Assembly (NCBI RefSeq): GCF_028737195.1
Contig: NZ_JAQZAJ010000002.1
Coordinates: 310,001 to 374,000 of the forward strand
Source of the DNA: Pseudovibrio exalbescens
GTDB lineage: Bacteria > Pseudomonadota > Alphaproteobacteria > Rhizobiales > Stappiaceae
Direction: 5' to 3'
Length of the DNA stretch: 64,000 nt
In this document: in pieces, positions 49,717 to 64,000 of the stretch
How the letters are laid out: every line of letters begins with the position of its first letter
Position numbering within the stretch: the stretch's first letter is position 1
Translations under genes and position numbers: made by a program
The notes under the pieces: model-generated
What the model saw: the letters and a program-made list of their open reading frames with translations, nothing else
Told to the model about the DNA's origin: nothing
Databases searched by the model: none

Positions 49717-50688
49717 TTATCCCTCCACACGCGCCGCACGCTTTGGCAGCAGTCGGTCAATGTTGGTTGCAGTGATCGCCATGAGGATGATGAGGCCAAC
49801 GATCGCCTTGAAGGCAAAGGGGGTGATGCCGAGCAGGTTCAGACCGTTCTGCACGACGGCGAGCAGCATGACACCAAGGATAGCGCCAATTACTGTGCCG
49901 CGACCGCCGCCCAGCACCGCCCCGCCCAAGACAACGGCGGCGAGAATGTCGAGTTCGCGGCCATAAAGCGCGTTCGGCACAACTTCCTGTACGATGTGCG
50001 CCTGCATCAGCCCGCCAATGCCCGCGCACAGGCCAAGCCATCCATAGGCGAAAGCCTGAATGAAGGCGATGTTGACACCCGAACGGCGCGCGGCTTCGGG
50101 ATCTGAACCAAAACCGACTATCATGCGGCCAAAGCCAATCTTGGTCATGAAGAACCAGGTAACAAAGGCCAGAACAATCGCCACAACGATGGGCAGATAC
50201 AAAGTGGCAGAGGCAAATTCGAACACCGGAATGCGGTAGTACAGCCAATCTGGGATGTCATAGATTGATCGCCCTCGTGTGAAGTACATCAGGAGGCCGA
50301 AAAACAGGTTGAACGTCCCAATGGTTACTATGATCGAAACGATGCGGAACTTGTGAATGAGGAAGGCATTCACCAGTCCCAGCATGAGGCCAGTGGCCAT
50401 GGCGAACGCAAAGCCGATGACCCAGTTACCGCCGCCCAAGGAAAGCACGAGGGAAACGGCCACGTATTGTACTACCGATGCCGTGATGGAAAACGAAATG
50501 TCGATACCACCAGAGACCAGCACAACAACGAGACCAACAGCGAAGATGATGTTCACAGCCTGGTTGTTTAAGAGGTCAAACATGTTTTGAACGGTCAGGA
50601 AGCTGTCCGTTGTCAGGCTCAAGACAATCCCAAGTGCGATGATCACACCGAACAGAGAGCCTTCGACGCTTTTCAAGCGATTAAGCAT
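49717..50688 (-). CDS. Sugar ABC transporter permease (RbsC family) 1
   Basis: Second RbsC-type permease of the importer, 323 residues. It shows FAVGLVVVLVSGGIDISFSI-like helices, IVSIIVTIGTFNLFFGLLMYF, and the coupling segment VGFGSDPEAARRSGVNIAFIQAFAYGWLG, followed by DILAAVVLGGAVLGGGRGTVIGAILG, the standard family C-terminal motif. Two separate permeases are typical of some sugar and autoinducer-2 importers. Its start overlaps the ATPase gene by eight bases and its stop lies four bases before the second permease start, so all four are co-translated. Confidence 0.9.
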   Translation of the reverse strand: MLNRLKSVEGSLFGVIIALGIVLSLTTDSFLTVQNMFDLLNNQAVNIIFAVGLVVVLVSGGIDISFSITASVVQYVAVSLVLSLGGGNWVIGFAFAMATGLMLGLVNAFLIHKFRIVSIIVTIGTFNLFFGLLMYFTRGRSIYDIPDWLYYRIPVFEFASATLYLPIVVAIVLAFVTWFFMTKIGFGRMIVGFGSDPEAARRSGVNIAFIQAFAYGWLGLCAGIGGLMQAHIVQEVVPNALYGRELDILAAVVLGGAVLGGGRGTVIGAILGVMLLAVVQNGLNLLGITPFAFKAIVGLIILMAITATNIDRLLPKRAARVEG

Positions 50689-52171
50689 TGATGATGCCCT
50701 CCAACTCTTCTTCGCTCACTTCAGATGTTTTGAAACTTCGGGCCACCCTGCCCGCTTTCAAGACAATCGTCCGGTCGGTGTGATGGAAGATCTCACTGGC
50801 CTCATCAGAAATCAGGATGATCGCCATGCCTTCTTTTGCCAAATTGCGGATGATCTCGAAAATTCCGGCTTTTGCGCCCACATCAACACCCACTGTCGGG
50901 GAATCGAGCACCAGCACCTTCGGGTTTGTTGCCAGCCACTTTGCGAGAACGATGCGCTGCTGATTGCCGCCGGAAAGAGATGAGACCGGCAGCATGGGGT
51001 CACTTACTTTGGTTTTCAGCTTTTCGATCCAGAGATCGCAGAGTTCGCGAATTCGTTTCGGGTTCAAAAAGAAGCTTGGTTGCGAAAGCTCTTTAAGCAC
51101 CGTCGAGGCGGTGTTGTCGGCAATTGACTGCTGCTGGTCAAGGCCAAGGTTCAACCGATCTTCGGAGACATAGGCAACACCGGCGTCGATGGCGTCACGG
51201 TTGCTGCGAAACTTCACTTCTTTTCCATCGAGGCGCAGCTCACCGCTATCGGGCGATGTCATTCCGAAGATGCTTAGGGCGATTTCGGTCCGACCGGATC
51301 CCATCAGCCCCGTGAGGCCGAGAATTTCACCTTTGCGCAAGTCAAAGCTGATGTCTTCGTATTCGCCGCGGCGAGTGAGGTGCTTCAGCACCAACATGCG
51401 TTCGCCATCAACATCCCCTGCTCTCGGTGTCTGGTCCAGTTCCTTGCCGGTCATCAGAGTTGAGAGCTTCTTTTGCGTCATGCCTTCCGTGGGAAAGGTG
51501 CCAACGAGCTTGCCGTCCCGCAAGACGGTAACCCGCTCGCAAACATCGAGCACTTCTCCCAGACGGTGGCTTACGAAAACAATTGAAATACCCTGCTCAG
51601 ACAATCGGCGAACGATCTGCAGCAAGGTTTCGGTTTCTTTCTGGGTCAAAGAAGCCGTGGGTTCGTCCATGAAGACGATGCGCGCTTCTGCCTGAATGAC
51701 GCGGCAAATGGCGACGAGCTGCCGTTTGGCGATGCTCAAGTCACCCACCCGCGCTTTGGGATCCAGTTGGACACCCAACTGCTCAATGGTTTTTTGGGCG
51801 CGCTCCAGCTTTTGCGCGCGGCCAATACCTCTCAATGGATTGGCTACAAAAGCGTCAAAGCAGATGTTCTCCGCAACGCTTAGGTCCGGAAACAAGGACA
51901 GATCCTGCCAGATCACATGAATGCCCAGGCGTTTCGCGCTTGAAGGGGTGATGTGTCCTACGGCTTCCTGTCCGGAGAAATCGAATTGTGCGCCGGGCTC
52001 AGGTTGATACACCCCGTTGATGATCTTGATGAGCGTGCTCTTGCCGCAGCCGTTCTCGCCTGCAAGGCAATGTATCTCGCCCGGACGCAGTTCAAATTCC
52101 ACATTGTCCAGCGCCGTGAAGCCGCCGAAGCGCTTGGTTATGGACCGCGCGCGAATTGCTAGTTCAGTCAT
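50681..52171 (-). CDS. Sugar ABC transporter ATP-binding protein (RbsA/MglA-like, two nucleotide-binding domains)
   Basis: Duplicated ATPase of 496 residues. The first half has Walker A GENGCGKSTLIKIINGVYQPE, Q-loop HVIWQDLSLFPDLSV, signature DLSIAKRQLVAICRVIQAEA, Walker B IVFMDEPTASLTQKE and H-loop VFVSHRLGEVLD. The second half has a degenerate Walker A-like GLMGSGRTEIALSI, signature SLSGGNQQRIVLAKWLA and Walker B VLVLDSPTVGVDVG, in which Glu is replaced by Ser. This asymmetry is usual in RbsA. The ATG at 52171 (MTELAIRAR) is chosen over 52225, which has no family-like sequence. Confidence 0.94.
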   Translation of the reverse strand: MTELAIRARSITKRFGGFTALDNVEFELRPGEIHCLAGENGCGKSTLIKIINGVYQPEPGAQFDFSGQEAVGHITPSSAKRLGIHVIWQDLSLFPDLSVAENICFDAFVANPLRGIGRAQKLERAQKTIEQLGVQLDPKARVGDLSIAKRQLVAICRVIQAEARIVFMDEPTASLTQKETETLLQIVRRLSEQGISIVFVSHRLGEVLDVCERVTVLRDGKLVGTFPTEGMTQKKLSTLMTGKELDQTPRAGDVDGERMLVLKHLTRRGEYEDISFDLRKGEILGLTGLMGSGRTEIALSIFGMTSPDSGELRLDGKEVKFRSNRDAIDAGVAYVSEDRLNLGLDQQQSIADNTASTVLKELSQPSFFLNPKRIRELCDLWIEKLKTKVSDPMLPVSSLSGGNQQRIVLAKWLATNPKVLVLDSPTVGVDVGAKAGIFEIIRNLAKEGMAIILISDEASEIFHHTDRTIVLKAGRVARSFKTSEVSEEELEGIINA

Positions 52172-52263
52172 GTGTTCTTCTCGACTGGGCACAGCTGTCC
52201 TGCTCGGGCGGCCAAGGCTGCCCAACCAGTAGGTTAGAAGGTCATGCCGGAGGGCTAAGGGGA

Positions 52264-52296
52264 GCCGGAGCCAGTTCGTGGTGAACCGGCTCCGGC
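52264..52296. repeat. Long hairpin between substrate-binding protein and ATPase genes
   Basis: GCCGGAGCCAGTTC (52264-52277) and GAACCGGCTCCGGC (52283-52296) pair over 14 bases with one G-T wobble and a five-base loop. It lies between the first and second genes of the importer operon and no T-run follows, so an mRNA-stabilising or partial-attenuator role fits. Confidence 0.8.
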
Positions 52297-52326
52297 AATG
52301 AGCGGGCCTGAACCCGACTTGGGAGC

Positions 52327-53313
52327 TTAGAGGCCGATTTCGGCCAATCCGTCTACAGTGTCCTTGGTCAGTGCAAGCGGCTTGTTGGCATAGATGTTCT
52401 TGCCTTCAAGTTCCACTTGTCCAAGCACAGGAACGTCGTCACCATCTTTCACGGTGTCGCCCATAACAAGCATGGTGCCCAGCTCAACAAATGCCTTGCC
52501 TGCCTCAATTGGGCTCCATACGAAGCCGCCGGTAAGGGCATCTGAGTGCACCAGACGTCGGCCCTGACCAGCAGAGAACAAGCCAACAACGGCCACTTGA
52601 CCTTCAAGACCACGTTCTTGAACAGCGCGTGCGGCACCGATTGGGCCCTGGCTGCCGAAAGCCATTACGCCGGCGAAGTCTTCATTGGCACGCAGCAAGT
52701 CCAGCGTGGTCGTGCGGCTGTCGTCAACGCTTTCTGCAACGCCGAAACGGTCAGCAGCCTGAGACATGTCAGGGCACTTTGCTTCAAGGTGTGCAACTGC
52801 AGCATCCGCCCAGGCATTGTGTGCAGGCACCGTCAGGCCGCCAACATACACAGCGTACTTGCCCTCACAGTTTGTTGCTTCAGCAAACAGATCCGCATGG
52901 GCCTTACCGAAGTTCTCAGCAGAGATCAGCTCAAAGTTGAAATCCTTGTTGAGGCTAGCTTCGGATTCATGCGTGATAACCTTGATGCCAGCTTCTTGAG
53001 CGCGCTTTAAAACAGGTTCAAGCACCTGAGCATCATTTGGGACCACGCCGATGACATCCACGCCGCGTGCGATGAGGTCTTCAATGGCACGGACCTGAAG
53101 TGCCGGATCGGCACTGGTAGGACCAACCATGAATGCATCCACGCCCAGCTTCTCACCAGCTTCCTCGATGCCCTGCTCCATGGCGTTGAACCATGGAATA
53201 CCACCAACCTTCACAACCACACCGATTGTCGGCTTTTCGGCTGCCATGGCAGAACCTGCCAGCATGGAAACGGAGATAGCAGCTGCACCAAGTAGCTTAG
53301 AAATAGTCTTCAT
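52327..53313 (-). CDS. Periplasmic sugar-binding protein (RbsB/Peripla_BP_4 family)
   Basis: First gene of the importer operon, 328 residues. Signal peptide MKTISKLLGAAAISVSMLAGSAMA precedes AEKPTIGVVVKVGGIPWFNAMEQG, the opening of the first alpha/beta lobe. The segments VDVIGVVPNDAQVLEPVLKRAQEAGIKVITHESEA and GQVAVVGLFSAGQGRRLV match the periplasmic sugar-binding family, where such loops line the cleft. As I recall, homologues of this subgroup include the binding proteins for rhamnose, ribose and AI-2, so ligand cannot be assigned. Expressed from the divergent region with the LacI gene. Confidence 0.92.
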   Translation of the reverse strand: MKTISKLLGAAAISVSMLAGSAMAAEKPTIGVVVKVGGIPWFNAMEQGIEEAGEKLGVDAFMVGPTSADPALQVRAIEDLIARGVDVIGVVPNDAQVLEPVLKRAQEAGIKVITHESEASLNKDFNFELISAENFGKAHADLFAEATNCEGKYAVYVGGLTVPAHNAWADAAVAHLEAKCPDMSQAADRFGVAESVDDSRTTTLDLLRANEDFAGVMAFGSQGPIGAARAVQERGLEGQVAVVGLFSAGQGRRLVHSDALTGGFVWSPIEAGKAFVELGTMLVMGDTVKDGDDVPVLGQVELEGKNIYANKPLALTKDTVDGLAEIGL

Positions 53314-53352
53314 TGGGTCCTCCCAAACCTATCGAAATCAGTGCTTTACACT

Positions 53353-53370
53353 TGCACCATCGAAGGTGCA
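53353..53370. promoter_or_regulatory. LacI-type operator candidate
   Basis: TGCACCATCGAAGGTGCA is an 18-base palindrome centred on CG, with one mismatched pair. This is the typical design of LacI-family operators. It lies in the 119-base divergent region between the importer operon and the lacI gene. Confidence 0.6.
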
Positions 53371-53432
53371 TATTGCGCATCACTGCATTTCTTGTCAAGC
53401 ATGATTAAAAGGAATGATCGGGAGGAGGCTTG

Positions 53433-54458
53433 ATGACCGATGGTCGCAGCGATAAGCGCCCTACAATTTATGATCTCGCAAAACTAACGAATACGTCGGC
53501 GAGTACAGTGGGTGCGGTCCTTAACGGGAGTTGGAAAAAACGTCGCATAAGTCAAAAGCTTGCAGACCAGATCCGGAAGGTTGCCATTGAGCAAGGGTAC
53601 TCGCCAAACATGCAGGCGCGTGCACTTCGCACCGAGCGTTCAAACATCATTGGCATGATCGTTCCCATGTATGACAACCGTTATTTTGGCGCGCTGGCAG
53701 AGGCATTTGAGCAGCGCGCTCGCGATCGAGGTCTGTTTCCCATCGTGACTTGTACCCGTCGTGACCCGAATCTCGAAATCGAAGCGGCACAATCCATGCT
53801 GGCATACCGGGTTGACAATATTGTCTGTACCGGTGCGACTGATCCCGATCGAATTGCCGACCTGTGTGCGGCCCATGGCGTTGAAACGCTGAATGTCGAC
53901 CTGCCAGGAACAAGAGCGCCCTCTATCATTTCAGATAACTATCAAGCGGCCGTTGAGCTGACCAAAGATATTATTAGTCGGCTACCATCCGGCTGCGCAG
54001 GTAATGACAGCGATATCGTTTTCATTGGTGGTCGGGAAGAGGATCACAACACCGGCGAGCGTATTCGCGGCTTTAAAGACGCGCATGAGGAGGTTGGTGC
54101 CCGCATTGCCGAGGCCTACATCCGGCCGTGTGGTTATGCTGCCCACAAGGCTGAGCGCAGCTTGGATGAGTTCGTAAACAAAATGGGCGGCTTGCCGAAA
54201 GGCATTTTCATCAACTCGACGATTTCTCTGGAAGGGATCGTGAATTGGTTCCAGCAGAACGATATCACCGGTTTGGAAACGGTCGCGTTGGGGTGCTTCG
54301 ACTGGGATCCTTACGCCGCTCTGTTGGGCAACAAGACCTCAATGGTTCGCCAAAACGTGCCGGTCATGATGGATTTGCTTTTTGAGTTTCTTGAAGATCC
54401 GGAAAAGCGCAAGGCCGGCGTGACACAAGTTCTCCCGGAAGTCATCCGTCGCAGCTGA
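53433..54458 (+). CDS. LacI family transcriptional regulator
   Basis: Repressor of 341 residues. The N-terminal helix-turn-helix is RPTIYDLAKLTNTSASTVGAVLNGSWKKRRISQKLADQIRKVAIEQGYSPNMQARALRT (about residues 9-67). The effector domain of the periplasmic-binding type starts at NIIGMIVPMYDNRYFG. The ATG at 53433 follows GGAGGAGG, a strong ribosome site; the TTG three bases upstream is unlikely. It diverges from the importer-kinase operon and probably represses it until the imported sugar or its phosphate binds. An own terminator lies at 54471. Confidence 0.93.
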   Translation: MTDGRSDKRPTIYDLAKLTNTSASTVGAVLNGSWKKRRISQKLADQIRKVAIEQGYSPNMQARALRTERSNIIGMIVPMYDNRYFGALAEAFEQRARDRGLFPIVTCTRRDPNLEIEAAQSMLAYRVDNIVCTGATDPDRIADLCAAHGVETLNVDLPGTRAPSIISDNYQAAVELTKDIISRLPSGCAGNDSDIVFIGGREEDHNTGERIRGFKDAHEEVGARIAEAYIRPCGYAAHKAERSLDEFVNKMGGLPKGIFINSTISLEGIVNWFQQNDITGLETVALGCFDWDPYAALLGNKTSMVRQNVPVMMDLLFEFLEDPEKRKAGVTQVLPEVIRRS

Positions 54459-54547: not shown

Positions 54548-55753
54548 CTATGGTTTTCTCAAAACCACGGCGGTTCCCATGCCGCCACCAATACACAGCG
54601 ACGCCAAGCCGTGTGTGCAGTTGTCGCGCATCATGCCATAGAGCAGGGTGGTCACGATGCGTCCGCCAGACGCCCCTAGGGGATGACCGAGCGCAATGGC
54701 GCCGCCTGTAACGTTTGTCTTGTCCTCGAACCAATCCATGGACACGTCATGGTCGACGCAAAGACCCTTCATTACGGCAAGGGCTTGTGCGGCAAATGCT
54801 TCGTTGAGTTCAAGCCGTTCCATTTCCTCAAGGCGCATATCAGCTCGTTCGAGGGCTTGAGCAATCGCGGGAACCGGGCCGTAACCCATAACAGCTGGCG
54901 CAACGCCGCCCTGACCGTAGCTCACGATTTCCGCAAGTGGCTCAAGGCCAAAACTGACGACAGCCTCCTCTGAGGCAAGAACAAGGGCGACGCCGCCATC
55001 ATTGATCCCCGATGCATTGCCCGCTGTGACCGAACCGTCTGTCTTGAAAGCAGGTTTCAGCTTCGCAAGGCTCTCTAGAGAAGCATCTGCGCGAGGGTAC
55101 TCATCGCGCGCAAAAACAAAGGTGTTTCGGCGAACTTTCACTTCAATCGGCGCTATTTCGGCATCGAAAAGACCTGCCTCCACTGCGGAAGAGGCCTTTT
55201 GCTGGCTGCGTAACGCAAATGCATCTTGCGCTTCACGAGTCAGCTCAAACTTGTCGGCCAGATTTTCGGCCGTGATGCCCATATGGTAGCCGTGGAACAC
55301 ATCGGTGAGCCCATCGACAATCATTGTGTCGGCCAAGTTCTGCGTGCCCATCTTGTGGCCCTGTCTGCTTGCGCCAGGCAAGGCAAAGGGTGCCTGAGAC
55401 ATGTTTTCCATGCCAGCCGCCACGACGATGCTCGCATCTCCGGCCTTGATGTGAGCTGCCGCCTCCATGATGGATTTCATGCCTGAGCCGCAGATCATGT
55501 TCAGCGTGTAAGCTGGAATGCGGTCTGGAATGCCAGCGTAGATCGCCGCCTGACGGCCCGGCCCCATGCCTTGATTAGCCGACAAAACATTGCCAACAAT
55601 CACTTCATCGACCTGATCAGGGGCAACCCGGCTCTGTTCAAGGGCGGAGGAAATTGCGGTTGCTGCCAGTTTTGCGGCGGGAACGGTGGCAAGAGAGCCA
55701 AGGAAGCTCCCAAGTGCGGTACGTTTTGCACCTACGATAAAAATCTTTGTCAT
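54548..55753 (-). CDS. Acetyl-CoA acetyltransferase (thiolase)
   Basis: Condenses two acetyl-CoA to acetoacetyl-CoA, or runs in reverse, 401 residues. The catalytic residues are visible: Cys88 in NMICGSGMKS, His357 in GGAIALGHPLGASGGR and Cys387 in LASLCIGGGMG, plus NEAFAAQ in between. The N-terminus MTKIFIVGAKRTALGSFLGSL is typical. It belongs to the biosynthetic-type PhaA/AtoB branch by the GHPLGASG and CIGGGMG motifs, though degradative use cannot be excluded. It lies ten bases downstream of the SDR gene, forming a phaB-phaA-like pair opposite the CoA-transferase set. Confidence 0.93.
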   Translation of the reverse strand: MTKIFIVGAKRTALGSFLGSLATVPAAKLAATAISSALEQSRVAPDQVDEVIVGNVLSANQGMGPGRQAAIYAGIPDRIPAYTLNMICGSGMKSIMEAAAHIKAGDASIVVAAGMENMSQAPFALPGASRQGHKMGTQNLADTMIVDGLTDVFHGYHMGITAENLADKFELTREAQDAFALRSQQKASSAVEAGLFDAEIAPIEVKVRRNTFVFARDEYPRADASLESLAKLKPAFKTDGSVTAGNASGINDGGVALVLASEEAVVSFGLEPLAEIVSYGQGGVAPAVMGYGPVPAIAQALERADMRLEEMERLELNEAFAAQALAVMKGLCVDHDVSMDWFEDKTNVTGGAIALGHPLGASGGRIVTTLLYGMMRDNCTHGLASLCIGGGMGTAVVLRKP

Positions 55754-55763
55754 GGCAGCCTCG

Positions 55764-56498
55764 TTAGATCACCAGTCCGCCGTCAATCTTCAGCGTCTGA
55801 CCGGTGATGAACTTGGAGCGATCGCTCGCGAGAAACAGAACACCTTCTGCGATGTCTTCGGCTTCACCCATTCGGCCAAGCGGGGTCTTGCTCTTCATGT
55901 GGTCAATGACCTTTTCCGGAAGGTCTTTCGTCATTGGTGTTTTGATGAAGCCCGGTGCCACGCAATTCGCCCGAACCTGAGCGCCTTTACGCGAAAATTC
56001 CTTTGCCCAGCCCTTGGTCATGGAAATTACACCACCCTTGGTGGCAGCGTAGTTGCTTTGGCCGATGTTGCCGTCGGTGCCCACCACGGAGGACATGGTG
56101 ATCACGGAACCCGCGCCGCCTTCAATCATCACTGGCACCACAGCCTGAGTCATGTTGAAGACGCCCTTCAGGTTCACATCAAGCACGAGATCCCAATCAT
56201 TCTCGCTCATGCGGTCCAAAAGGTTGTCTCGGGTGATGCCAGCGTTGTTCACCAACACATCGATGTGGCCATGGTCTGCCTTGATCTTCTCGATGAAGCC
56301 AATGATCGCATCGCGATCACATACATTAAGTGCCACAGGCTCCACGTTTTGGAACCGATCGCGGTAATCCGCCATGGCATCTTCGTTCATATCGCAAGCG
56401 TATACCTTGGCTGCTTCGGCATTTGCGAAGGTTTCAACGATACAGCGTCCAATTCCCTGAGCGCCGCCGGTTACGATGCAAACTTTATCCTTGAGCAT
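55764..56498 (-). CDS. Short-chain dehydrogenase, acetoacetyl-CoA reductase/FabG-like
   Basis: NAD(P)H-dependent 3-ketoacyl reductase, 244 residues. Cofactor motif GGAQGIGR (11-18), then NNAG (84-87), Asn109 and catalytic Ser136/Tyr150/Lys154 in [22 protein letters not shown]. This is the sequence pattern of FabG and PhaB proteins. Its operon with the thiolase and the C4 genes across the LysR gene favours (R)-3-hydroxybutyryl-CoA formation, but FabG-type ACP substrates cannot be excluded. The ATG at 56498 (MLKDKVCIV) has a GAGGTGG ribosome site; the longer frame to 56531 is rejected. Confidence 0.9.
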
Positions 56499-56801
56499 AG
56501 TGATACCACCTCTTTTTCGCTGCGCAGGCACCTGGCAGGTCGCCCGCAGGTTGTTGGTGATATTCTTGACATGAAGCGCGCCGAATGATTACAGACAGCT
56601 CCGCAAAACAATAATGAGGAAATGGGATAGGCGTTTTGCGGCATGTCGTTTCAAACACGGTCCACTGCCTGAGAAAATGTAGCCTGCGACATTTCCTAGC
56701 CTATACACCGCAGGAGATCCCCTTACTCTTGCAACTCACTCTTAAGTTCCCGCAGTGGCTGTGCCCGCTCACTCCAATCACGAAGCCAAAGTGGAGGCCT
56801 C
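56499..56801. other. Divergent regulatory region between SDR and LysR genes
   Basis: About 300 bases with no gene, holding the promoters of the thiolase-SDR operon and of lysR. One inverted repeat, AAATGT (56675-56680) / ACATTT (56689-56694) separated by eight bases, may be a LysR binding site. A ribosome site GGAGG is right before the lysR ATG. Confidence 0.5.
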
Positions 56802-57737
56802 ATGCTCGACAAGATCGTGTACTTTTTGCACGTGGTGCGCACCGGTTCCTTTTCGGACGCGGCGCGGCTCTATGGCATTTCTGCAAGTGCGGGAAGTCGC
56901 TGGATCATTGAACTTGAGGAGAAAATGGGTGTCAGCCTGCTCAAGCGTTCCACCCGCAAGGTGGTTGCAACAGAGGCAGGCCAGCGGCTCTACGAGCGCT
57001 TCAGCGACGTGAACTCGGAAATCGAAGATATCTTCACGGAAATCAAGAACTTGGGCAAGGAAGAGCGGGGCACGATCTGTGTCGCAGCAACGCCGCTCTA
57101 TGCCCGCGATTTTCTGGCGCAAATCGTGGGTGAATACCTTCTTGAGCATCCGCACGTGGACTTCCGAATTCTTCAGACGGCATATGATGTTGATCTGGTT
57201 GAACAGGTAGACTTTTTTGTGCGGGCCAACGCCACCTACAACGGCTTCCAGGAGAAAGACAGCCTTCTGGTGCGCCGCTCTCTGCTCCGATATCCATTGG
57301 TGGCGTGCTGTTCGCCTGACTATGCGGATCGCTATGGCATCCCGAAAGCGCCGGAGGATCTGAGGCACCACAACTGTCTGTTTGCCCATACGCTTGTTGG
57401 CGGAAACAAATGGGTCTTCGAGTACGATGGCGATTGTGCCGCTGTTGAGATCGCCCGCACGGTGGAGGTCGATGACAGCGAGATCATCAAGTCGATCGCG
57501 CTCACGGGCGGGGGCATTGCCTATCTTCCAATCCACATCCTGCAAAATGAGCTGGCAAACGGTCGCCTCATCTCCATTCTGAGCGACTACATTGACGCCG
57601 AGTTCGAATACAACCTGTATTTCCGACGCCGTCGCCAAATGCCTCTCATGTGTACGAACTTCAAGGATTTCCTGATCAAGCGCACCCGAGAGCTTAGTCA
57701 GGAATCGCCTGCCAGCGATCTGCAGTGCGCGGTTTAA
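56802..57737 (+). CDS. LysR family transcriptional regulator of the C4 cluster
   Basis: LysR-type regulator of 311 residues. The helix-turn-helix is in IVYFLHVVRTGSFSDAARLYGISASAGSRWIIELEEKMGVSLLKRS (about residues 5-50). The effector domain begins at GTICVAATPLYARDFLAQIVGEYL (about 88). Two cysteines CC at about 172 follow LRYPLVA. It is transcribed away from the SDR-thiolase operon and toward the CoA-transferase operon, 136 bases upstream of the latter, and is therefore the probable common regulator of both halves. Effector unknown; a short-chain acyl compound is a guess. Confidence 0.9.
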   Translation: MLDKIVYFLHVVRTGSFSDAARLYGISASAGSRWIIELEEKMGVSLLKRSTRKVVATEAGQRLYERFSDVNSEIEDIFTEIKNLGKEERGTICVAATPLYARDFLAQIVGEYLLEHPHVDFRILQTAYDVDLVEQVDFFVRANATYNGFQEKDSLLVRRSLLRYPLVACCSPDYADRYGIPKAPEDLRHHNCLFAHTLVGGNKWVFEYDGDCAAVEIARTVEVDDSEIIKSIALTGGGIAYLPIHILQNELANGRLISILSDYIDAEFEYNLYFRRRRQMPLMCTNFKDFLIKRTRELSQESPASDLQCAV

Positions 57738-57873
57738 TTGTCCCGATTGTGCAATTGTCTTTTAGGTGATTGTCTATTTTTCGCATCACGGAACCCTCCT
57801 ACACTTGCCTTAGGAAGCAAAAAAGTGATGCGTGACCTTGTTCACTTGCATCACCATAATGAAGGGTCACAAG

Positions 57874-59466
57874 ATGCAAGTAAAAGTTCTGACGCCAGAG
57901 GGAGCCGCTGGTCTTATTCAGGACGGGGACCGCGTCATTTTAGGCGGTTTTATTGGTGCAGTCGTTCCAGAGGCCATAGAAAAAGCAATTCGAGATCGCT
58001 TCTTGGAAAGCGGTTCGCCGCGCAATCTCGAACTTTATTTCACGGCAGGCCAAGGGGATGGTCAGGACCGGGCCAACAACCACCTCTCTCATGAAGGGCT
58101 GGTCAGCCTTGCCATGGGCGGCCATTGGGGCCTCATCCCACGCCTTCAGGATCTGGCCAACCGCGAGCGCATCCAAGCCTACAACTTTCCGCAGGGCGTG
58201 ATCGCGCAGCTTTTGCGCGACAGCGCTGCCGGAAAACCCGGAACGCTTACCCATGTTGGTCTTGGCACTTTCGTCGACCCACGCCTTGAGGGTGGCAAGA
58301 TCAACAAGGTGACTCAAGAAGACCGCGTTTCCTTGATGGAAGTGGAGGGCGAAGAGTACCTTTTTTACAAGCGCATCAACGCCAATGTCGCCCTCCTGCG
58401 CGGCACAACGGCAGACACCAATGGCAACATCACCATGGAAGATGAATGCCTGTTCCTTGAGAACCTGGCCGCTGCGCAGTTGGTGACCAATATGGGTGGC
58501 AAGGTCATCGTTCAGGTGAAGAAAATTGTCGAAGCTGGTGAGCTCGATCCGCAGCAGGTGCGCATTCCTGGCATCTTCGTTGACGCCGTCGTGGTTGCAA
58601 ACGAAGAAGACCACATGCAAACGTTCGCGGAGCCCATGAACCCTGCGTATTGTGGCCGTGGTGACCTTCTTCAGCAAAACAGTGGACCCAGAAAGCTCGA
58701 CGCCAAGAAAATCATTGCCCGCCGGGCGGCTGTTGAGCTGAAGAGTGGAGCCATCCTGAACTACGGCATTGGTGTCCCGGAAGTAATTGCAGAAGTTACA
58801 GATGAAGAGGGCGTCACCCAGCAGATGATTGCCACCGTTGAGCCAGGTGCCATCGGCGGAACCCCTGCAGGCGGGCTCAGCTTTGGCGCCTCAGCCTTTC
58901 CTGAAGCGGTGATCACACAAGACCAGATGTTCGACTTCTACGATGGCGGCGGTGTCGATCAAGCATTTCTCGGTCTTGCTGAGTGCGATCGCAACGGGGA
59001 TCTCAATGTTTCCCGCTTCGGGCCAAAAATCGCGGGTTGCGGTGGCTTCATCAACATCACTCAAAATGCCAAGGAAGTTTTCTTTTGCGGAACATTCACC
59101 GCTGCAGGTCTGAAGGTCTCAGCTGGCGAAGGCCGTTTGGTGATCGAGCAGGAGGGCCGCATCAAGAAGTTCCTCGATAAGGTTCAGCAGATTACCTTCT
59201 CAGCCAATCAAGCGCGCCGAAATGGTAAGCCGGTTATGTACATCACCGAGAGGGCCGTCTTCCGCCTTTCTGAGGAGACGCTGGAGCTGATCGAAATTGC
59301 GCCGGGGGTAGATCTGGAAAGGGACATTCTGAACCAGATGGACTTTCAGCCTCAGGTCAGCCCGGACTTGAAGCTGATGGAGGCGCGCCTGTTCATGGAT
59401 GAGCCGCTTGGGCTCACTCTTAAGTCGCTGCGGGAAGAGCCACAATTACTGGAAGCTGTGGCCTGA
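57874..59466 (+). CDS. Acyl CoA-transferase (acetate/propionate/butyrate type, YdiF-like)
   Basis: Moves CoA between short-chain acids via a covalent glutamyl-CoA intermediate, 530 residues with both alpha and beta parts fused in one chain. The catalytic glutamate is Glu323 in IATVEPGAIGGTPAGG, the alpha/beta boundary lies before it and ILNYGIGVPEVIAEV is the second-domain opening. N-terminal GDRVILGGFIGAVVPEAIEKAI and NLELYFTAGQGDGQDRANNHL are typical of the YdiF/PCT family. The start at 57874 (MQVKVLTPEGA) has AAGGG nearby; ATG 57859 is possible. First gene of a run that continues with MaoC and FabV, 43 and 46 bases apart. Confidence 0.92.
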   Translation: MQVKVLTPEGAAGLIQDGDRVILGGFIGAVVPEAIEKAIRDRFLESGSPRNLELYFTAGQGDGQDRANNHLSHEGLVSLAMGGHWGLIPRLQDLANRERIQAYNFPQGVIAQLLRDSAAGKPGTLTHVGLGTFVDPRLEGGKINKVTQEDRVSLMEVEGEEYLFYKRINANVALLRGTTADTNGNITMEDECLFLENLAAAQLVTNMGGKVIVQVKKIVEAGELDPQQVRIPGIFVDAVVVANEEDHMQTFAEPMNPAYCGRGDLLQQNSGPRKLDAKKIIARRAAVELKSGAILNYGIGVPEVIAEVTDEEGVTQQMIATVEPGAIGGTPAGGLSFGASAFPEAVITQDQMFDFYDGGGVDQAFLGLAECDRNGDLNVSRFGPKIAGCGGFINITQNAKEVFFCGTFTAAGLKVSAGEGRLVIEQEGRIKKFLDKVQQITFSANQARRNGKPVMYITERAVFRLSEETLELIEIAPGVDLERDILNQMDFQPQVSPDLKLMEARLFMDEPLGLTLKSLREEPQLLEAVA

Positions 59467-59509
59467 GGCCGCAGCGCGAATAACAAATCACGAATGCACG
59501 AGGCTTCTC

Positions 59510-59929
59510 ATGAGTTACACACTGGACGAGCTTGCCGTTGGGCAAAAAGCATATTTTGAAAAAACAATCTGCGAAGCAGACATTCAGGCTTTCTGCGGGA
59601 TCAGCGGGGACGTTAACCCGGTGCATGTCAGCGATACCGCAGCGCGCGAAAGCGTCTTTGGCAAGCGCGTGGCCCATGGCATTCTCGTCTCTGGGCTCAC
59701 CTCCACGGTCTTGGGCATGCAGCTGCCCGGGCCCGGTACCATCTATCTCGGCCAAGAGCTACGCTTTAAGGCGCCGGTTTATATTGGCGACACCATCCGG
59801 GCAGAAGTCGAAGTTATTGAAATTAATAAGGAAAAGAAAATAGCAAAGCTGCGCACTGTCAGCGTCAATCAAGATGGCAAGGCCGTCATCGAAGGCGTTG
59901 CGACCGTCAGGCCGCCACGCGCTGCATAA
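59510..59929 (+). CDS. MaoC family (R)-specific enoyl-CoA hydratase (PhaJ-like)
   Basis: Interconverts trans-2-enoyl-CoA and (R)-3-hydroxyacyl-CoA, 139 residues, single hotdog domain. The active site Asp34 and His39 lie in GDVNPVH (33-39), the hydratase-2 signature, followed by RVAHGILVSGLTSTVLGMQLPGPGTIYLGQELRF. Small size and the short C4-pocket-type residues suggest short-chain enoyl-CoA. The ATG at 59510 is preferred; the longer open frame from 59399 overlaps the CoA-transferase gene. It lies between the CoA-transferase and fabV, consistent with crotonyl-CoA/(R)-3-hydroxybutyryl-CoA exchange. Confidence 0.92.
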   Translation: MSYTLDELAVGQKAYFEKTICEADIQAFCGISGDVNPVHVSDTAARESVFGKRVAHGILVSGLTSTVLGMQLPGPGTIYLGQELRFKAPVYIGDTIRAEVEVIEINKEKKIAKLRTVSVNQDGKAVIEGVATVRPPRAA

Positions 59930-59975
59930 CCAAAAATCAAATTTCACTCGCACAAAGTTCCCAGAAGAGCACACC

Positions 59976-61178
59976 ATGAAAATCGAACCAGTCATCAAAG
60001 GGCAGGTGGCTAAGACCTGTCATCCCATTGGCTGCCAAAAAGCAGTCGAAGACCAAATCGCCCAAGTTCGAAAATCCAAACAAATCAAGGAGGGGCCAAA
60101 GAAGGTCCTTGTACTGGGCTCCTCCTCTGGTTTTGGTCTCGCTTCTCGCATTTCTCTCGCCTTTGGTGGCGCAAGGGCGGACACGATTGGTGTCGCGTTT
60201 GAGCGTGGCCCTTCCGAAACAGGCTTAGGGACCGCTGGCTGGTACAACTCCATCTATTTCCGCGAGGCCGCAGAAAAGGAAGGGTTGATAGCCAAGAACT
60301 TCATTGGCGACGCTTTCTCGCCTGCCATGCGTCAAGGTGTGGTGGATTACATCAAGACCGAGTTTGGTGGCTCTGTCGACTTGGTGGTGTATTCGCTCGC
60401 CACAGGCATCCGACCTGATCCGAAGACCGGTGAAAGAATCCGCTCGTCTCTCAAGACAATCGGGGAGCCGCTTACGGGCTATACCGTCAATCTTGAAGAG
60501 GATCGGCTTCAGGAAGGTGTGCTTGAAGCTGCAACTGAACAGGAAGTGGCGGATACCGTTCGTGTTATGGGCGGCGAAGATTGGGCGGAGTGGATTGAGT
60601 TCTTATCTGGCGAAGGAGTGTTGGCACACGGGTGTCAGACCGTTGCCTACTCTTATATCGGTTCCGAAATAACCCATAAAATCTATCATGAAGGGACTCT
60701 TGGTCGCGCCAAGGTTCATCTTCATGGAACGGCAGATGTGCTTGATGCCAAGCTTAAGGAGATTGGTGGCCAAGCCCATGTTGCCGTGTGTAAGGCCCTG
60801 GTGACAAAGGCAAGTGTGTTCATTCCGGCCTTTTCGCCATACATCCTCGCTCTGTTCAAGGTAATGAAGGAGCTGGGGCTGCACGAAGGTTGCATTGAGC
60901 AAATGCAGCGCTTGTTTGCTGATCGGCTTTACAACGGCGAAGAGTTGGTCCCGGTGGACGAGCAGCGCCTGATACGTATCGACGATTGGGAGTTGCGAGA
61001 CGATGTGCAAGAGAAAGTGCAAGTCATTCTCAAAGAGCTTGATCAGAACAACTTCCAGAGTATTTCTGACTACGAGGGCTATAAAAAGGATTTCCTTGCA
61101 CTCAATGGTTTTGGCTTAGATGGTGTAGATTACGAAAAAGAAGTTTATGTCGATGACTTAAGTATAAAAATGCCGTAA
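59976..61178 (+). CDS. fabV: Trans-2-enoyl-CoA/ACP reductase, FabV type
   Basis: NADH-dependent reduction of a trans-2-enoyl-thioester, 400 residues, the usual FabV length. VLVLGSSSGFGLASRISLAFGG (about residues 44-65) is the cofactor motif, and the catalytic Tyr237-x8-Lys246 pair lies in SYIGSEITHKIYHEGTLGRAK. MKIEPVIKGQVAKTCHPIGCQ and the C-terminal NGFGLDGVDYEKEVYVD are family hallmarks. FabV proteins act on ACP or CoA substrates; the Ter enzymes of butyrate pathways are homologues. The gene context (MaoC, CoA-transferase, thiolase, SDR) favours crotonyl-CoA to butyryl-CoA. The ATG at 59976 fits the family start. Confidence 0.95.
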   Translation: MKIEPVIKGQVAKTCHPIGCQKAVEDQIAQVRKSKQIKEGPKKVLVLGSSSGFGLASRISLAFGGARADTIGVAFERGPSETGLGTAGWYNSIYFREAAEKEGLIAKNFIGDAFSPAMRQGVVDYIKTEFGGSVDLVVYSLATGIRPDPKTGERIRSSLKTIGEPLTGYTVNLEEDRLQEGVLEAATEQEVADTVRVMGGEDWAEWIEFLSGEGVLAHGCQTVAYSYIGSEITHKIYHEGTLGRAKVHLHGTADVLDAKLKEIGGQAHVAVCKALVTKASVFIPAFSPYILALFKVMKELGLHEGCIEQMQRLFADRLYNGEELVPVDEQRLIRIDDWELRDDVQEKVQVILKELDQNNFQSISDYEGYKKDFLALNGFGLDGVDYEKEVYVDDLSIKMP

Positions 61179-61375
61179 TTATCTTACGTTACGTATACCT
61201 GATGGCCCGGATCAGAGTCTGGGCCATTTTTATTTTATGTATTTGTACATATATCACTATATTATTTCATATAAAGCAATATACCTTCCTGAAATCGGGA
61301 AAATGCTTCTTAAAAAAACGGGATATGTTTTGCCTAGTCTTAATTCAAGAGAAGGGACTAGGGAGGTTCCCAAAA

Positions 61376-62578
61376 ATGATCCGCAAGCACGTAATTGAAT
61401 TCGTGATCTTCATGACTTATGCGCTCTTTGCCATGTCATGGGTCGCCGGTAACATGATGACGAAAGACATCATGTCCTTCTATCAGGTTGAGGGTGTTGC
61501 TGCCGCAACCTGGATGACAAACGCCATCACCATCGCAAAAATCATTGGTAACCTGATTGCTGCATGGTTCCTGGTCAAACTCGGTCCCAAAAAGGCTTTT
61601 GCCTTTGCATCACTATTGGTTGTCGCTGGCGCTGCTGGTGCCTTCGCCTCCAACTATCCGCTCTATGTCTTTTCACGTCTCGTGATGGGCTTTGGCGGTG
61701 CCTTTGTGATCGTTTACTTCAACCCAATCGTCGTCAATTACTTCACGCCGGAAGAGCGCCCCATCGTCAACGGCCTCAACGCGGCCGCGTTCAACGCAGG
61801 TAACCTGTTCGCCTTGCTGCTCACGGGTTCGCTCGTGTCCCAGCTTGGTAGCTGGCAGAACGTGATCCTCGGTATATCCGTCGTAAGTTTCGTTCTTCTC
61901 GTCATCTGGTGGTTCATTTCAGAAGACTTTGAGCTTTCCGGACCAAAGAATGCCGTTGGCGAAGTGGAGAAGGCATACACCTTTAAGGATGGCGTCAAAG
62001 ATCCGGTAAACTGGCTGTTGCCATTTGCCTATTCCGGATTGCTGTTCTGCTACATTTCCGTCTTCGCGCTGTTTCCAATGATCCCAACCTTTGCTGTGTC
62101 CTCCCAGTATTTGGCATCCATCATGATTGGTGCCGGTATGGTTGGTACCGTAGTGGGCATTGTTGTTGCCAAGCGCTACCCGTTGCGTCTGCCCATCATG
62201 CGTTGGTGTGGTCTTGCCATGACCGGCTTTGCCGCGCTTATGATCACCACTTCAAGTCCGATGGTAGCGACAGCATCCGCCTTTCTCGCTGGCTTCTTCC
62301 TGTTCGTGCCGATGACTTGTCTCGTTACGTTGCCTCAGGAGCTGCCGGGCATGAACCCAGGTCGCATCACCATCATCTTTGCAATGTTCTGGTCAATTTC
62401 CTACATCATCGAAACCGCTCTGATGTATGCAGCGGGCGTCATGGCTGATCAGACTGGCAACATCTCGATTGCAGCGACCTTTGCGGTGGCATGTTCCGCC
62501 ACCCTGTTCATCTCAACGTTCTTCCTGCCGGAAACCGGTAAAAAGAAACTTCACTCTGTTGCACCTGCAAAAGCATAA
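61376..62578 (+). CDS. Major facilitator superfamily transporter
   Basis: Inner-membrane transporter with about twelve transmembrane helices, 400 residues. The frame is open from 61202, but the ATG at 61376 (MIRKHVIEFVIFMTYALF) follows GGGAGG at a good distance and starts a normal MFS N-terminus. The loop between helices 2 and 3 is KLGPKKAFAFASLL, an MFS motif A-like segment (G-x-x-x-D/G-K), and the domain repeats around residue 210. It is 197 bases after fabV, so partly separated from it, and ten bases before the esterase ATG, which is clearly coupled. Substrate unknown; uptake or export of short acids or esters is suggested by context. Confidence 0.9.
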   Translation: MIRKHVIEFVIFMTYALFAMSWVAGNMMTKDIMSFYQVEGVAAATWMTNAITIAKIIGNLIAAWFLVKLGPKKAFAFASLLVVAGAAGAFASNYPLYVFSRLVMGFGGAFVIVYFNPIVVNYFTPEERPIVNGLNAAAFNAGNLFALLLTGSLVSQLGSWQNVILGISVVSFVLLVIWWFISEDFELSGPKNAVGEVEKAYTFKDGVKDPVNWLLPFAYSGLLFCYISVFALFPMIPTFAVSSQYLASIMIGAGMVGTVVGIVVAKRYPLRLPIMRWCGLAMTGFAALMITTSSPMVATASAFLAGFFLFVPMTCLVTLPQELPGMNPGRITIIFAMFWSISYIIETALMYAAGVMADQTGNISIAATFAVACSATLFISTFFLPETGKKKLHSVAPAKA

Positions 62579-62590
62579 AAGGGGGCCCCA

Positions 62591-63526
62591 ATGCGTCAAG
62601 TAAGTCCAAAGCTCGTTCCATTTCTTGATCAGTTCAACAAGACCATTGCGGAGCTTATTGCGAATGGCTTCAAGCCGAACGCAATCAATGCTCGTGAAGC
62701 ACTGGCAAACATGACCAAGACACATGTCACGGACATTCCAAAGGTCGCGCTGATACAGGACGATCTGATTTATGCGGAAGGCTACAACGTACCGGTTCGC
62801 ATTTTTAACCCGGCTCCAGAAGAAGAGCTTCCTGTTCTGGTGTACTACCACGGCGGCGGCCATATGGCGGGCAGTGTCACGGTGTATGACCCGCTCTATC
62901 GCAAGATGGCTCTGGCAACGAAACACATCGTGGTCGCACCAGAGTATCGCCTTGCCCCTGAGCATCCGTATCCAGCAGGTGTCGAAGATTCCTATGCAAC
63001 ACTGCGCGGCGTTTGGGATGCGCTTGACCGTCGTGGCATGAAGTACAAGCGCGAGCTGTCCATCGGCGGCGACTCCGCTGGCGGCGCACTGGCAACTGCG
63101 GTTGCGCATCTGGCGCAGTTCGATGTCAACGTAACCATCAAGAAGCAGCTCCTGGTCTATCCATGCGTCGACTACACCATGGATACACCGTCCTACACCG
63201 AAAACGCTGTTGGCTATCTGCTGCACACCGCAAAATGTGCATGGTACTTCGACAACTACTTCAAGAAAGGCGAATGCCGTAAAGCCGCGTCCACCCTGTT
63301 CAAAGACTTCACTCGCCACCTGCCTGAGACATTTGTGGTCACGGCGGAGTTCTGCCCACTGCGTGATGAAGGCAAGCTCTATTATGAGAAGGTGAAGGAA
63401 GCAGGCGTGCGCGCAGAGCATCTCTACTTCAACGATATGACCCATACCTTCCTGAATTTGGAAGATTTGGTCAAGGAAGAGTGCCAGTTGGTCTACTCCC
63501 GCATGAATGAGTTCTTAAACAGCTAA
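62591..63526 (+). CDS. Alpha/beta hydrolase, HSL-type esterase
   Basis: Carboxylesterase of the hormone-sensitive-lipase family, 311 residues. The oxyanion-hole motif HGGG is at 87-90, the nucleophile Ser162 in IGGDSAGGALA, the acid Asp259 in CPLRDEG and the catalytic His285 in NDMTHTF. All are in the usual order and spacing. No signal peptide is visible, so it is cytoplasmic. It follows the MFS gene by 12 bases and is likely co-expressed. Activity on short-chain acyl esters such as butyrate or acetate esters is typical for this family but not proven here. The operon ends with a terminator at 63551. Confidence 0.92.
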   Translation: MRQVSPKLVPFLDQFNKTIAELIANGFKPNAINAREALANMTKTHVTDIPKVALIQDDLIYAEGYNVPVRIFNPAPEEELPVLVYYHGGGHMAGSVTVYDPLYRKMALATKHIVVAPEYRLAPEHPYPAGVEDSYATLRGVWDALDRRGMKYKRELSIGGDSAGGALATAVAHLAQFDVNVTIKKQLLVYPCVDYTMDTPSYTENAVGYLLHTAKCAWYFDNYFKKGECRKAASTLFKDFTRHLPETFVVTAEFCPLRDEGKLYYEKVKEAGVRAEHLYFNDMTHTFLNLEDLVKEECQLVYSRMNEFLNS

Positions 63527-63550
63527 GAACCGTTCAGACTCGATGCGCTG

Positions 63551-63580
63551 CGGGGCCCTTTTGGGGCCCCGTTTGCGTTT
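63551..63580 (+). terminator. Terminator after the esterase gene
   Basis: CGGGGCCC (63551-63558) pairs with GGGGCCCCG (63563-63571) around TTTT, followed by TTTGCGTTT. It closes the MFS-esterase transcript. Confidence 0.82.
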
Positions 63581-63937: not shown

Positions 63938-64000
63938 ATGAGCACAACAGCATTTCAAGGTGATGAAGCGGCAAGTCTTGCGAGCACGCCAACATTCACC
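63938..64000 (+). CDS. Start of an unidentified gene, truncated by the window edge
   Basis: ATG at 63938 opens a frame of 21 codons (MSTTAFQGDEAASLASTPTF and on) with no stop before the end. A weak purine-rich sequence, GGAAAACGG, precedes it. The sequence is too short to identify; Ser/Thr/Ala-rich and with no signal peptide visible so far. Confidence 0.45.
   Translation, partial: MSTTAFQGDEAASLASTPTFT

Follow-up and report, generated by a model that had tools for sequence, protein, structure and literature searches.

What purpose is served by a cluster of eight genes near the end of the 64,000-nucleotide stretch analysed here (the window; positions 310001-374000 of contig C11 of genome G000, a Pseudovibrio-like genome of 4.39 Mb)? 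The cluster comprises eight intact open frames at 54548-63526: a thiolase gene (thl) and a short-chain dehydrogenase/reductase (SDR) gene (sdr) on the minus strand, followed on the plus strand by genes for a LysR-type regulator (lysR), a CoA-transferase (coat), a MaoC hydratase (maoC), a FabV-family reductase (fabV), a major facilitator superfamily (MFS) transporter (mfs) and an esterase (est). A first-pass annotation had named the first six, including MaoC with its GDVNPVH motif, and all six are intact at or near the places it gave; it did not mention mfs and est, although both lie within its span. It had put butyrate formation from acetyl-CoA first and listed 3-hydroxybutyrate catabolism as one option, and it is the latter direction that leads here. 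Taken together, the data make it moderately likely that the locus is a dedicated regulon for the dismutation, that is, the fermentation, of imported (R)-3-hydroxybutyrate (3HB), or of short 3-hydroxyacid esters that release 3HB. The gene set, its conservation, the conserved sites, residues resembling those of trans-2-enoyl-CoA reductase (TER) and an NAD-type motif are read from the sequence; from these we infer all enzyme activities, the substrate, the direction and the link between LysR and its sites.

The proposed reaction sequence would begin with import of the substrate by the MFS transporter and release of the acid by the esterase. The CoA-transferase would then convert 3HB and either acetyl-CoA or butyryl-CoA to (R)-3HB-CoA, liberating acetate or butyrate. 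The oxidative half would involve: oxidation of (R)-3HB-CoA by the SDR, with NAD, to acetoacetyl-CoA and NADH; and cleavage of acetoacetyl-CoA with CoA by the thiolase, giving two acetyl-CoA. The reductive half would involve: dehydration of (R)-3HB-CoA to crotonyl-CoA by MaoC; and reduction of crotonyl-CoA to butyryl-CoA by the TER-like reductase, using the NADH from the SDR step. Butyryl-CoA would hand its CoA to the next substrate molecule, freeing butyrate. In the net reaction, two 3HB would yield butyrate, two acetate and H+, with NADH and CoA both closed, and one acetyl-CoA per two 3HB would remain for ATP formation via phosphate acetyltransferase and acetate kinase (Pta-AckA). LysR would act at three local sites.

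The synteny comparison called for by the first-pass annotation was made on 45 related loci from a CoA-transferase scan of genome contigs; as these were selected by CoA-transferase similarity, the sampling is not random. Six of the 45, from both Alpha- and Gammaproteobacteria, show all eight genes in identical order and orientation: P. exalbescens (L025), P. flavus (L026), Vibrio fluminensis (L027), V. renipiscarius (L031), Enterovibrio (L043) and V. thalassae (L067). CoA-transferase identity across these loci is 76-84%. Recurrence of one order in six loci argues that the arrangement is not chance. Two Shewanella loci (L032, L034) carry ackA-pta in place of mfs, between reductase and esterase (family search on L032; AckA established in both; Pta of L034 assigned from its cluster alone), which fits the ATP step of the proposed fermentation. 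AckA is found in 12 of 12 genomes searched, with two copies in the window's own genome. Loci of this kind are termed type A, and some of them are less regular. Shewanella marina (L060), in which the frames of lysR and coat are split, lacks both mfs and ackA-pta; in L029, thl, sdr and lysR are missing; and L030 and L033 end at contig edges. Three further loci are L036, with sdr-thl-coat, and L037, with sdr-coat-est, each next to a divergent lysR, and L069, labelled Cedecea, where lysR and an incomplete coat are accompanied by maoC, fabV and a pta-like gene.

The 27 remaining loci are of other types, and many of their CoA-transferases adjoin uptake systems of the TRAP, GntP or DASS families, in support of a dismutation fed by import. 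Type B comprises 17 Vibrio loci (L038-L048 except L043, L052-L056, L065 and L068) in which a TRAP transporter and an MctS-like two-component pair accompany lysR and coat, and most of which also have sdr and thl; they probably serve to take up and oxidise a hydroxy- or keto acid. Types A and B coexist in V. fluminensis and V. thalassae. Two further loci have the TRAP block on the far side, six Photobacterium loci (type C) read GntP-coat-lysR, and two Aliagarivorans loci combine coat-sdr with a transporter gene of DASS length (L049 tested).

The chemistry predicted for the individual enzymes is consistent with this scheme. The SDR has Asp at the end of β2 (YACDMN in the window), and CDMN is seen in 10 type A relatives and in L037 (22 further rows gave no readout). 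We take this Asp to be a mark of NAD(H) enzymes, so that the redox loop could close on NADH. The SDR also resembles FabG and acetoacetyl-CoA reductases, which we take to indicate (R)-specificity. The nearest solved relatives of MaoC, 5cpg and 1iq6, are both named (R)-specific enoyl-CoA hydratase, and such PhaJ-type enzymes presumably prefer short chains. (R) is the stereoisomer found in polyhydroxybutyrate (PHB). Alignment of the CoA-transferase to 2ahu shows conservation of the column of YdiF Glu333, which we take to be the catalytic Glu; the protein is a single chain and thus fits the YdiF/FadX type, scoring 394 bits against the Staphylococcus FadX model (cut-off 750). Its closest named relatives are those of P. 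exalbescens and P. flavus. Among the matches listed, the FabV model is the only NCBIfam equivalog to reach its cut-off. The clostridial-type (S)-specific Hbd/Crt and Bcd-EtfAB are not at the locus; SDR, MaoC and the FabV family occupy their place. By predicted function, the (R)-type C4 set claimed in the first-pass annotation is complete, with thiolase, SDR, PhaJ-like MaoC, enoyl reductase and CoA-transferase all present. A second CoA-transferase in the same genome (46% identity, contig C21) has, by eye, another catabolic cluster around it.

Closure of the reductive half requires a reductase acting on CoA thioesters. The window protein scores 502.5 bits against the NCBIfam FabV equivalog NF043048 (cut-off 400), a model that TERs may also pass. 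It is about 50% identical to housekeeping FabV, with which it shares the YX8K motif, named as a FabV signature in a passage of PMC9260719. Around this motif, the window reads IYHEGTLGRAK, C. acetobutylicum TER reads IYREGTIGIAK and FabV reads IYWDGALGQAK; the next block, KALVTKAS, is identical in the window and C. acetobutylicum TER, as against KSVVTQAS in FabV. The TER-type residues of the window are common to C. acetobutylicum TER and only in part to T. denticola TER. Across 24 columns that separate two TERs from six FabV, chosen with those same two TERs and with no TER held out, the window is TER-like at 11, FabV-like at 4 and otherwise at 9; 11 other operon copies have the TER residue at 10-17 and the FabV residue at 2-5. 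Xanthomonas FabV, which was not used in column choice, has the FabV form of both motif blocks. In a midpoint-rooted tree, five genomic housekeeping FabV together with V. fischeri and Xanthomonas FabV form one clade (100/100), and the window reductase falls in a separate clade (100/99) with operon, cydAB-linked and TesA-linked copies. Seventeen non-Pseudovibrio genomes each have a FabV-family copy about 46-51% identical to the window's (split in one), which we take to be housekeeping FabV. These 17 belong to a set of 20 genomes, those of 20 CoA-transferase loci, 13 of which hold complete or partial type A loci; the three Pseudovibrio of the set have no FabV-family copy at that 46-51% level. According to the first-pass annotation, its reading would fail if this FabV were ACP-specific and essential as the sole enoyl reductase. 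A role as sole enoyl reductase is rejected because the same genome has two FabI-type matches (335.8 and 295.5 bits, both below the cut-off of 337), the second adjoining, by eye, a fabB-like gene; the active-site block is, in addition, not of the housekeeping FabV type. The reductase is therefore not the only enoyl-ACP reductase. It is probably CoA-linked, and membership of its family suggests use of NADH.

Related reductases occur elsewhere. The window's genome has a second TER-like FabV-family gene (G000:C3:19120-20310; L004, 7097-8374; 65% identity), adjoining frames that resemble, by eye, cydA, cydB and an ABC pair. Similar surroundings are seen in P. exalbescens (L115), and P. flavus has no second FabV-family copy. 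The cydAB linkage suggests a low-oxygen role for this copy. A further class, 52-57% identical to the window reductase and also TER-like at the YX8K block, lies beside a tesA-like gene in nine of 12 fetched regions (L104-L106 and L108-L113, Vibrio). The case would be a warning that some genes annotated as FabV may encode CoA-linked reductases.

The next requirement is coordinate control. Alignment of the sdr-lysR intergenic regions of nine loci yields a 27-bp conserved block with the consensus CAAAACACTATTGCANANANGGGATAA. With each of the nine loci scored by a model lacking its own site, all 13 type A loci tested, four of which took no part in the model, have site 1 ahead of lysR with a score of 14 or more; site 2 stands ahead of coat in 16 of 16 (score at least 10), inverted in 15 and not so in the damaged L066. 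The 25 type B, C and other loci all score 5.1 or less; five of the 45 loci (L049, L050, L051, L064 and L069) were left out of this test. A third copy, before mfs or, in Shewanella, before est, scores at least 13 in eight of 15 loci and is strong in several Vibrio, Photobacterium and Shewanella loci; in L031, L033 and L043 it lies just outside the tested interval, and L035 (6.0) and L060 (-5.3) have no clear third site. The best of five shuffles per locus scored 3.7 to 14.4 across the nine loci, and was exceeded by site 1 in nine of nine and by site 2 in eight of nine; scores from random intervals were of little use because these often fell on the sites themselves.

The same sites emerge from gammaproteobacterial sequences. 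A model built from gammaproteobacterial sites 1 alone ranks window sites 2 and 1 first and second (26.4 and 17.3; next 10.9), and one built from gammaproteobacterial sites 1-3 gives 29.8 and 20.3 in the window, whereas the reversed window reaches 16.7 and the highest-scoring of ten shuffles 12.0. Site 3 scores low by the nine-locus model in the window and P. flavus, yet is alike in three Pseudovibrio genomes. Across the whole of its own genome, a pattern made from the three window sites has three matches at one mismatch or fewer, all in the locus; its three matches at two mismatches equal the total of the backwards control. Since a conserved site precedes all three units, sdr-thl, coat-maoC-fabV and mfs-est probably form one local regulon, with mfs-est the least supported in the window. 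The single LysR regulon of the first-pass annotation is apparently borne out, and, judged by position, LysR would be the protein that binds these putative sites.

A precedent for this physiology comes from the Fusobacteriaceae. Ilyobacter polytropus, a mud bacterium, is reported to ferment 3HB to acetate and butyrate; PMC10096456 gives the stoichiometry as two 3HB to two acetate, one butyrate and H+. Its plasmid pILYOP01 (NC_014633) reads short-chain fatty acid (SCFA) transporter-TetR-CoA-transferase A/B-thiolase-SDR-MaoC-acyl-CoA dehydrogenase-EtfA (EtfB is not among the genes listed), with identities to the window of 57% (thl), 52% (sdr), 53% (maoC) and about 31% per CoA-transferase half. 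A second member of the family, Cetobacterium somerae, carries on plasmid p2 (NZ_CP143321) an alpha/beta hydrolase-MFS-GntP set divergent from CoA-transferase-TetR-thiolase-SDR-MaoC-acyl-CoA dehydrogenase-EtfB-EtfA. Identities to the window here are 56% (est), 36% (mfs), 53% (coat), 55% (thl), 62% (sdr) and 52% (maoC), and its GntP shares 51-52% identity with the permeases of L028 and L057. Cetobacterium is classed with anaerobes. The presence of acyl-CoA dehydrogenase and an electron transfer flavoprotein (ETF) indicates that the same six genes travel with an unrelated enzyme for the step from crotonyl-CoA to butyryl-CoA. A cold-seep fusobacterial plasmid (ZRK30) has CoA-transferase-enoyl-CoA hydratase-GntP-MaoC-acyl-CoA dehydrogenase-ETF, with no thiolase, SDR or esterase nearby.

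Several observations weigh against 3HB dismutation as proposed here. Overall similarity places the reductase about equally close to FabV and TER (nearest solved structures: V. fischeri FabV, 9e-122; C. acetobutylicum TER, 3.2e-117), and the tree sets its clade apart from FabV and TER alike, the two characterised TERs being long branches outside it that do not group together. Sites 2 and 3 of L043 fall under the best shuffle score, and window site 3 scores 4.0 by the model from gammaproteobacterial sites 1-3 and is not recovered. L028 (Photobacterium), where a GntP permease lies beside lysR, lacks thl, sdr and maoC; L035 (sdr-lysR-coat-mfs-est) lacks maoC and fabV, and also thl. The esterase implies an ester substrate, for which 3HB oligomers are the obvious candidate. 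No PHB-depolymerase match exceeds the TIGR01840 cut-off in the 20 genomes, however, and weak matches occur in eight; no claim of polymer attack is therefore made. The 3HB dehydrogenase model TIGR01963, the one dehydrogenase type searched, matches in four of the 20 genomes, those of the three Pseudovibrio and of one Enterovibrio, whose need for a CoA-level route is thereby reduced; by the same count, this route may be the sole one in most carriers. Finally, it is we who infer that the Ilyobacter cluster underlies 3HB fermentation (the literature passages state no such link), and that cluster lacks an esterase and has another CoA-transferase type.

Two other roles in PHB metabolism were considered. 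A locus for polyhydroxyalkanoate (PHA) synthesis is rejected: in the own genome, matches to TIGR01838, a class I model, lie on contigs C1 and C23, and the module lies on C11. Intracellular PHB mobilisation as the sole purpose is likewise disfavoured, as class I PhaC, the only class searched, was not found in four of the 20 genomes, including the three Shewanella searched.

How, then, do other explanations compare? Butyrate fermentation from acetyl-CoA, in which the steps from thiolase to butyryl-CoA would dispose of NADH during sugar fermentation and the CoA-transferase would free butyrate with acetate as acceptor, draws on the presence of every C4 reverse β-oxidation enzyme. The combination of thiolase, PhaB, PhaJ and Ter is known from engineered pathways, as a passage of PMC9118988 describes, and Pseudovibrio is described as facultatively anaerobic and fermentative in the main text of PMC3806328. 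That text reports mixed-acid fermentation in other Pseudovibrio strains and does not mention butyrate ("butyr" occurs 0 times), a weak point against this route and no test of it, since the module is not shown in those strains. Such a route needs neither esterase nor importer, both seemingly under the shared regulator site. I. polytropus, moreover, is reported to form no butyrate from glucose or fructose. The esterase and transporter, the uptake systems of sister loci and the Ilyobacter cluster all favour an imported 3-hydroxyacid, and the acetyl-CoA route, though preferred in the first-pass annotation, is rather unlikely.

Less probable still is oxidative use of 3-hydroxyacids or their esters under oxygen, in which CoA-transferase, SDR and thiolase would form the pathway, with MaoC and the reductase salvaging crotonyl-CoA or serving another enoyl substrate. 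Relatives of types B, C and D are what this would predict, having CoA-transferase, mostly SDR and/or an uptake system, and no window-like MaoC or FabV nearby, and the composition of L035 fits equally. In most type A loci, however, MaoC and the reductase are found together, as parts of the coat unit, and the Cetobacterium version has butyryl-CoA-forming genes of another family in an organism classed with anaerobes. One further possibility would be that the same chemistry acts on other 3-hydroxyacids and their esters, such as branched ones or those of C5 and above. The thiolase, SDR, MaoC and hormone-sensitive lipase (HSL) esterase families are broad enough for this, and the equivalog matches listed, FabV aside, do not narrow them. 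The closest cluster with known physiology nevertheless belongs to a 3HB/crotonate fermenter, and the best solved MaoC relatives are PhaJ-type, which leaves other substrates a slim chance.

High identity between Alpha- and Gammaproteobacteria and patchy occurrence together suggest gene transfer. MaoC of at least 70% identity occurs in five of 150 Vibrionaceae genomes, and four of the 16 Pseudovibrio genomes have a FabV-family gene of the module kind, which in one of them is interrupted by a stop. In the CoA-transferase tree, Pseudovibrio forms its own branch within a single type A branch (support 92), a topology that favours neither direction of transfer. An uncultured Pseudovibrio (genome G003; L066/L008, L148) holds a damaged module: coat, thl, mfs and est matches are in pieces, the reductase contains one stop, and no sdr, lysR or maoC match is on the contig. 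Eight Vibrionaceae genomes of 3.3-3.6 Mb (L137-L144) encode a MaoC domain 47% identical to the window's, in frames of 479-481 residues in seven of the eight; this length fits a candidate bifunctional enoyl-CoA hydratase/phosphate acetyltransferase.

Features of the locus are collected in the table. The starts of coat, maoC, the reductase gene and mfs were picked by eye from start context; an alternative coat start is 57859. Gaps are short within thl-sdr (10 bp), coat-maoC (43 bp), maoC-fabV (46 bp) and mfs-est (12 bp), and the 197-bp gap between fabV and mfs holds a terminator-like hairpin. Terminator scanning finds 10 sites in the window against a mean of 9.5 in shuffles, making the hairpins weak evidence alone, and promoter and terminator site numbers are no higher than in shuffles. 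The thiolase motifs CGSG, GHPLGASG and CIGGGMG were seen by eye, the SDR scores 284.7 bits against TIGR01830 (cut-off 297.8), and no NCBIfam model stands above cut-off for LysR among the matches listed. Directly left of thl (49717-54458) lie sugar ABC transporter-like frames and a divergent LacI regulator gene, which adjoins the module also in P. exalbescens L025 (79%) and not in P. flavus L026. The gene after est (window 63938-64000; L003:9939-11162) resembles, by eye, a secreted zinc metalloprotease with calcium-binding repeats (HEIGHALGLGH, glycine-rich repeats).

Table. Predicted features of the eight-gene locus, in window coordinates.
Feature	Position	Strand	Basis or remark
Thiolase, acetyl-CoA C-acetyltransferase	54548..55753	-	TIGR01930, 452 bits (cut-off 240.6); Pfam Thiolase_N/C
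FabG/PhaB-like SDR, probable NAD(H)-linked 3-hydroxyacyl-CoA dehydrogenase/reductase	55764..56498	-	NF009466, 240 bits (cut-off 222); adh_short_C2; TGGAQGIG
Putative LysR site 1, sdr-lysR intergenic	56604..56630	+	Kept from Pseudovibrio to Shewanella
LysR-type regulator	56802..57737	+	PF00126 and PF03466
Putative LysR site 2, lysR-coat intergenic	57738..57764	-	Top window position (26.4), model from gammaproteobacterial sites 1 alone
YdiF/FadX-type acyl-CoA:acid CoA-transferase, single chain	57874..59466	+	E. coli YdiF structure 2ahu, E 1.2e-143
MaoC, PhaJ-like (R)-specific enoyl-CoA hydratase	59510..59929	+	Best solved relatives 5cpg, 1iq6; GDVNPVH aligned
FabV/TER-family trans-2-enoyl thioester reductase, TER-like active-site block	59976..61178	+	PF12241/PF12242/PF07055
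Terminator-like hairpin 3' of reductase gene	61201..61228	+	12-pair stem, then TTTATTTTAT
Putative LysR site 3, upstream of mfs, weakest of three	61277..61303	+	Alike in three Pseudovibrio, same position
MFS transporter	61376..62578	+	PF07690
HSL-family alpha/beta hydrolase (esterase)	62591..63526	+	PF07859; LipP1 model 258.8 bits, below cut-off 350
Terminator-like hairpin 3' of esterase gene	63550..63572	+	10-pair G+C-rich stem

That Ilyobacter ferments 3HB to acetate and butyrate has been observed for a long time. The window offers a compact gene set, complete with regulator, candidate operators, uptake and esterase, and a scheme balanced in redox and CoA, through which this physiology becomes testable in Pseudovibrio, a genus of culturable facultative anaerobes. 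No account of this gene set was recognised among titles and abstract openings of the open-licence literature; the physiology is already known, and the module with TER-like reductase, esterase and three-site regulon looks new as a variant. A broader proposal, plausible at somewhat less than even chance, is that facultatively anaerobic marine Proteobacteria horizontally share a self-contained regulon for fermenting 3HB and 3HB oligomers derived from PHB, with butyrate and acetate as products. A TER-like reductase linked to NADH would take the part that acyl-CoA dehydrogenase/ETF plays in fusobacteria, and one LysR would exert control through three copies of a site that is conserved across Alpha- and Gammaproteobacteria. 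In that case, the breakdown of PHB would feed butyrate directly in marine and gut settings low in oxygen, and PHB turnover in marine animals and in sediments would be linked to a source of butyrate. To our knowledge, the proposed carriers are not usually counted among butyrate producers.

The locus can be set against several known systems. The Ilyobacter cluster likewise unites CoA-transferase, thiolase, SDR, MaoC, a butyryl-CoA-forming reductase and an uptake system, and its expected stoichiometry is the same; it differs in its two-subunit CoA-transferase, acyl-CoA dehydrogenase with ETF, SCFA transporter and TetR, in contrast to the YdiF-type transferase, TER-like reductase, MFS transporter, esterase and LysR of the window. 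Cetobacterium p2 has six of the eight homologues (thl, sdr, coat, maoC, mfs and est) together and a CoA-transferase of the same single-chain type; acyl-CoA dehydrogenase/ETF replaces the FabV family, TetR replaces LysR, and a GntP permease is added. The clostridial butyrate pathway (Thl-Hbd-Crt-Bcd/Etf) proceeds through the same intermediates, acetoacetyl-CoA to butyryl-CoA, with (S)-type enzymes and a flavoprotein reductase, as opposed to the (R)-type enzymes and FabV/TER-family reductase predicted here. The contrast with flavoprotein Bcd-Etf drawn in the first-pass annotation is thus real, and is softened by Cetobacterium, whose plasmid pairs the six shared genes with acyl-CoA dehydrogenase and ETF. 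Housekeeping FabV differs from the window reductase in clade and in the residues around YX8K. Engineered (R)-specific reverse β-oxidation uses four identical enzyme classes, pieced together from several organisms; the window set is native and comes with uptake, esterase and regulator, and would, if the proposed dismutation is correct, be the natural counterpart of the thiolase-PhaB-PhaJ-Ter pathway.

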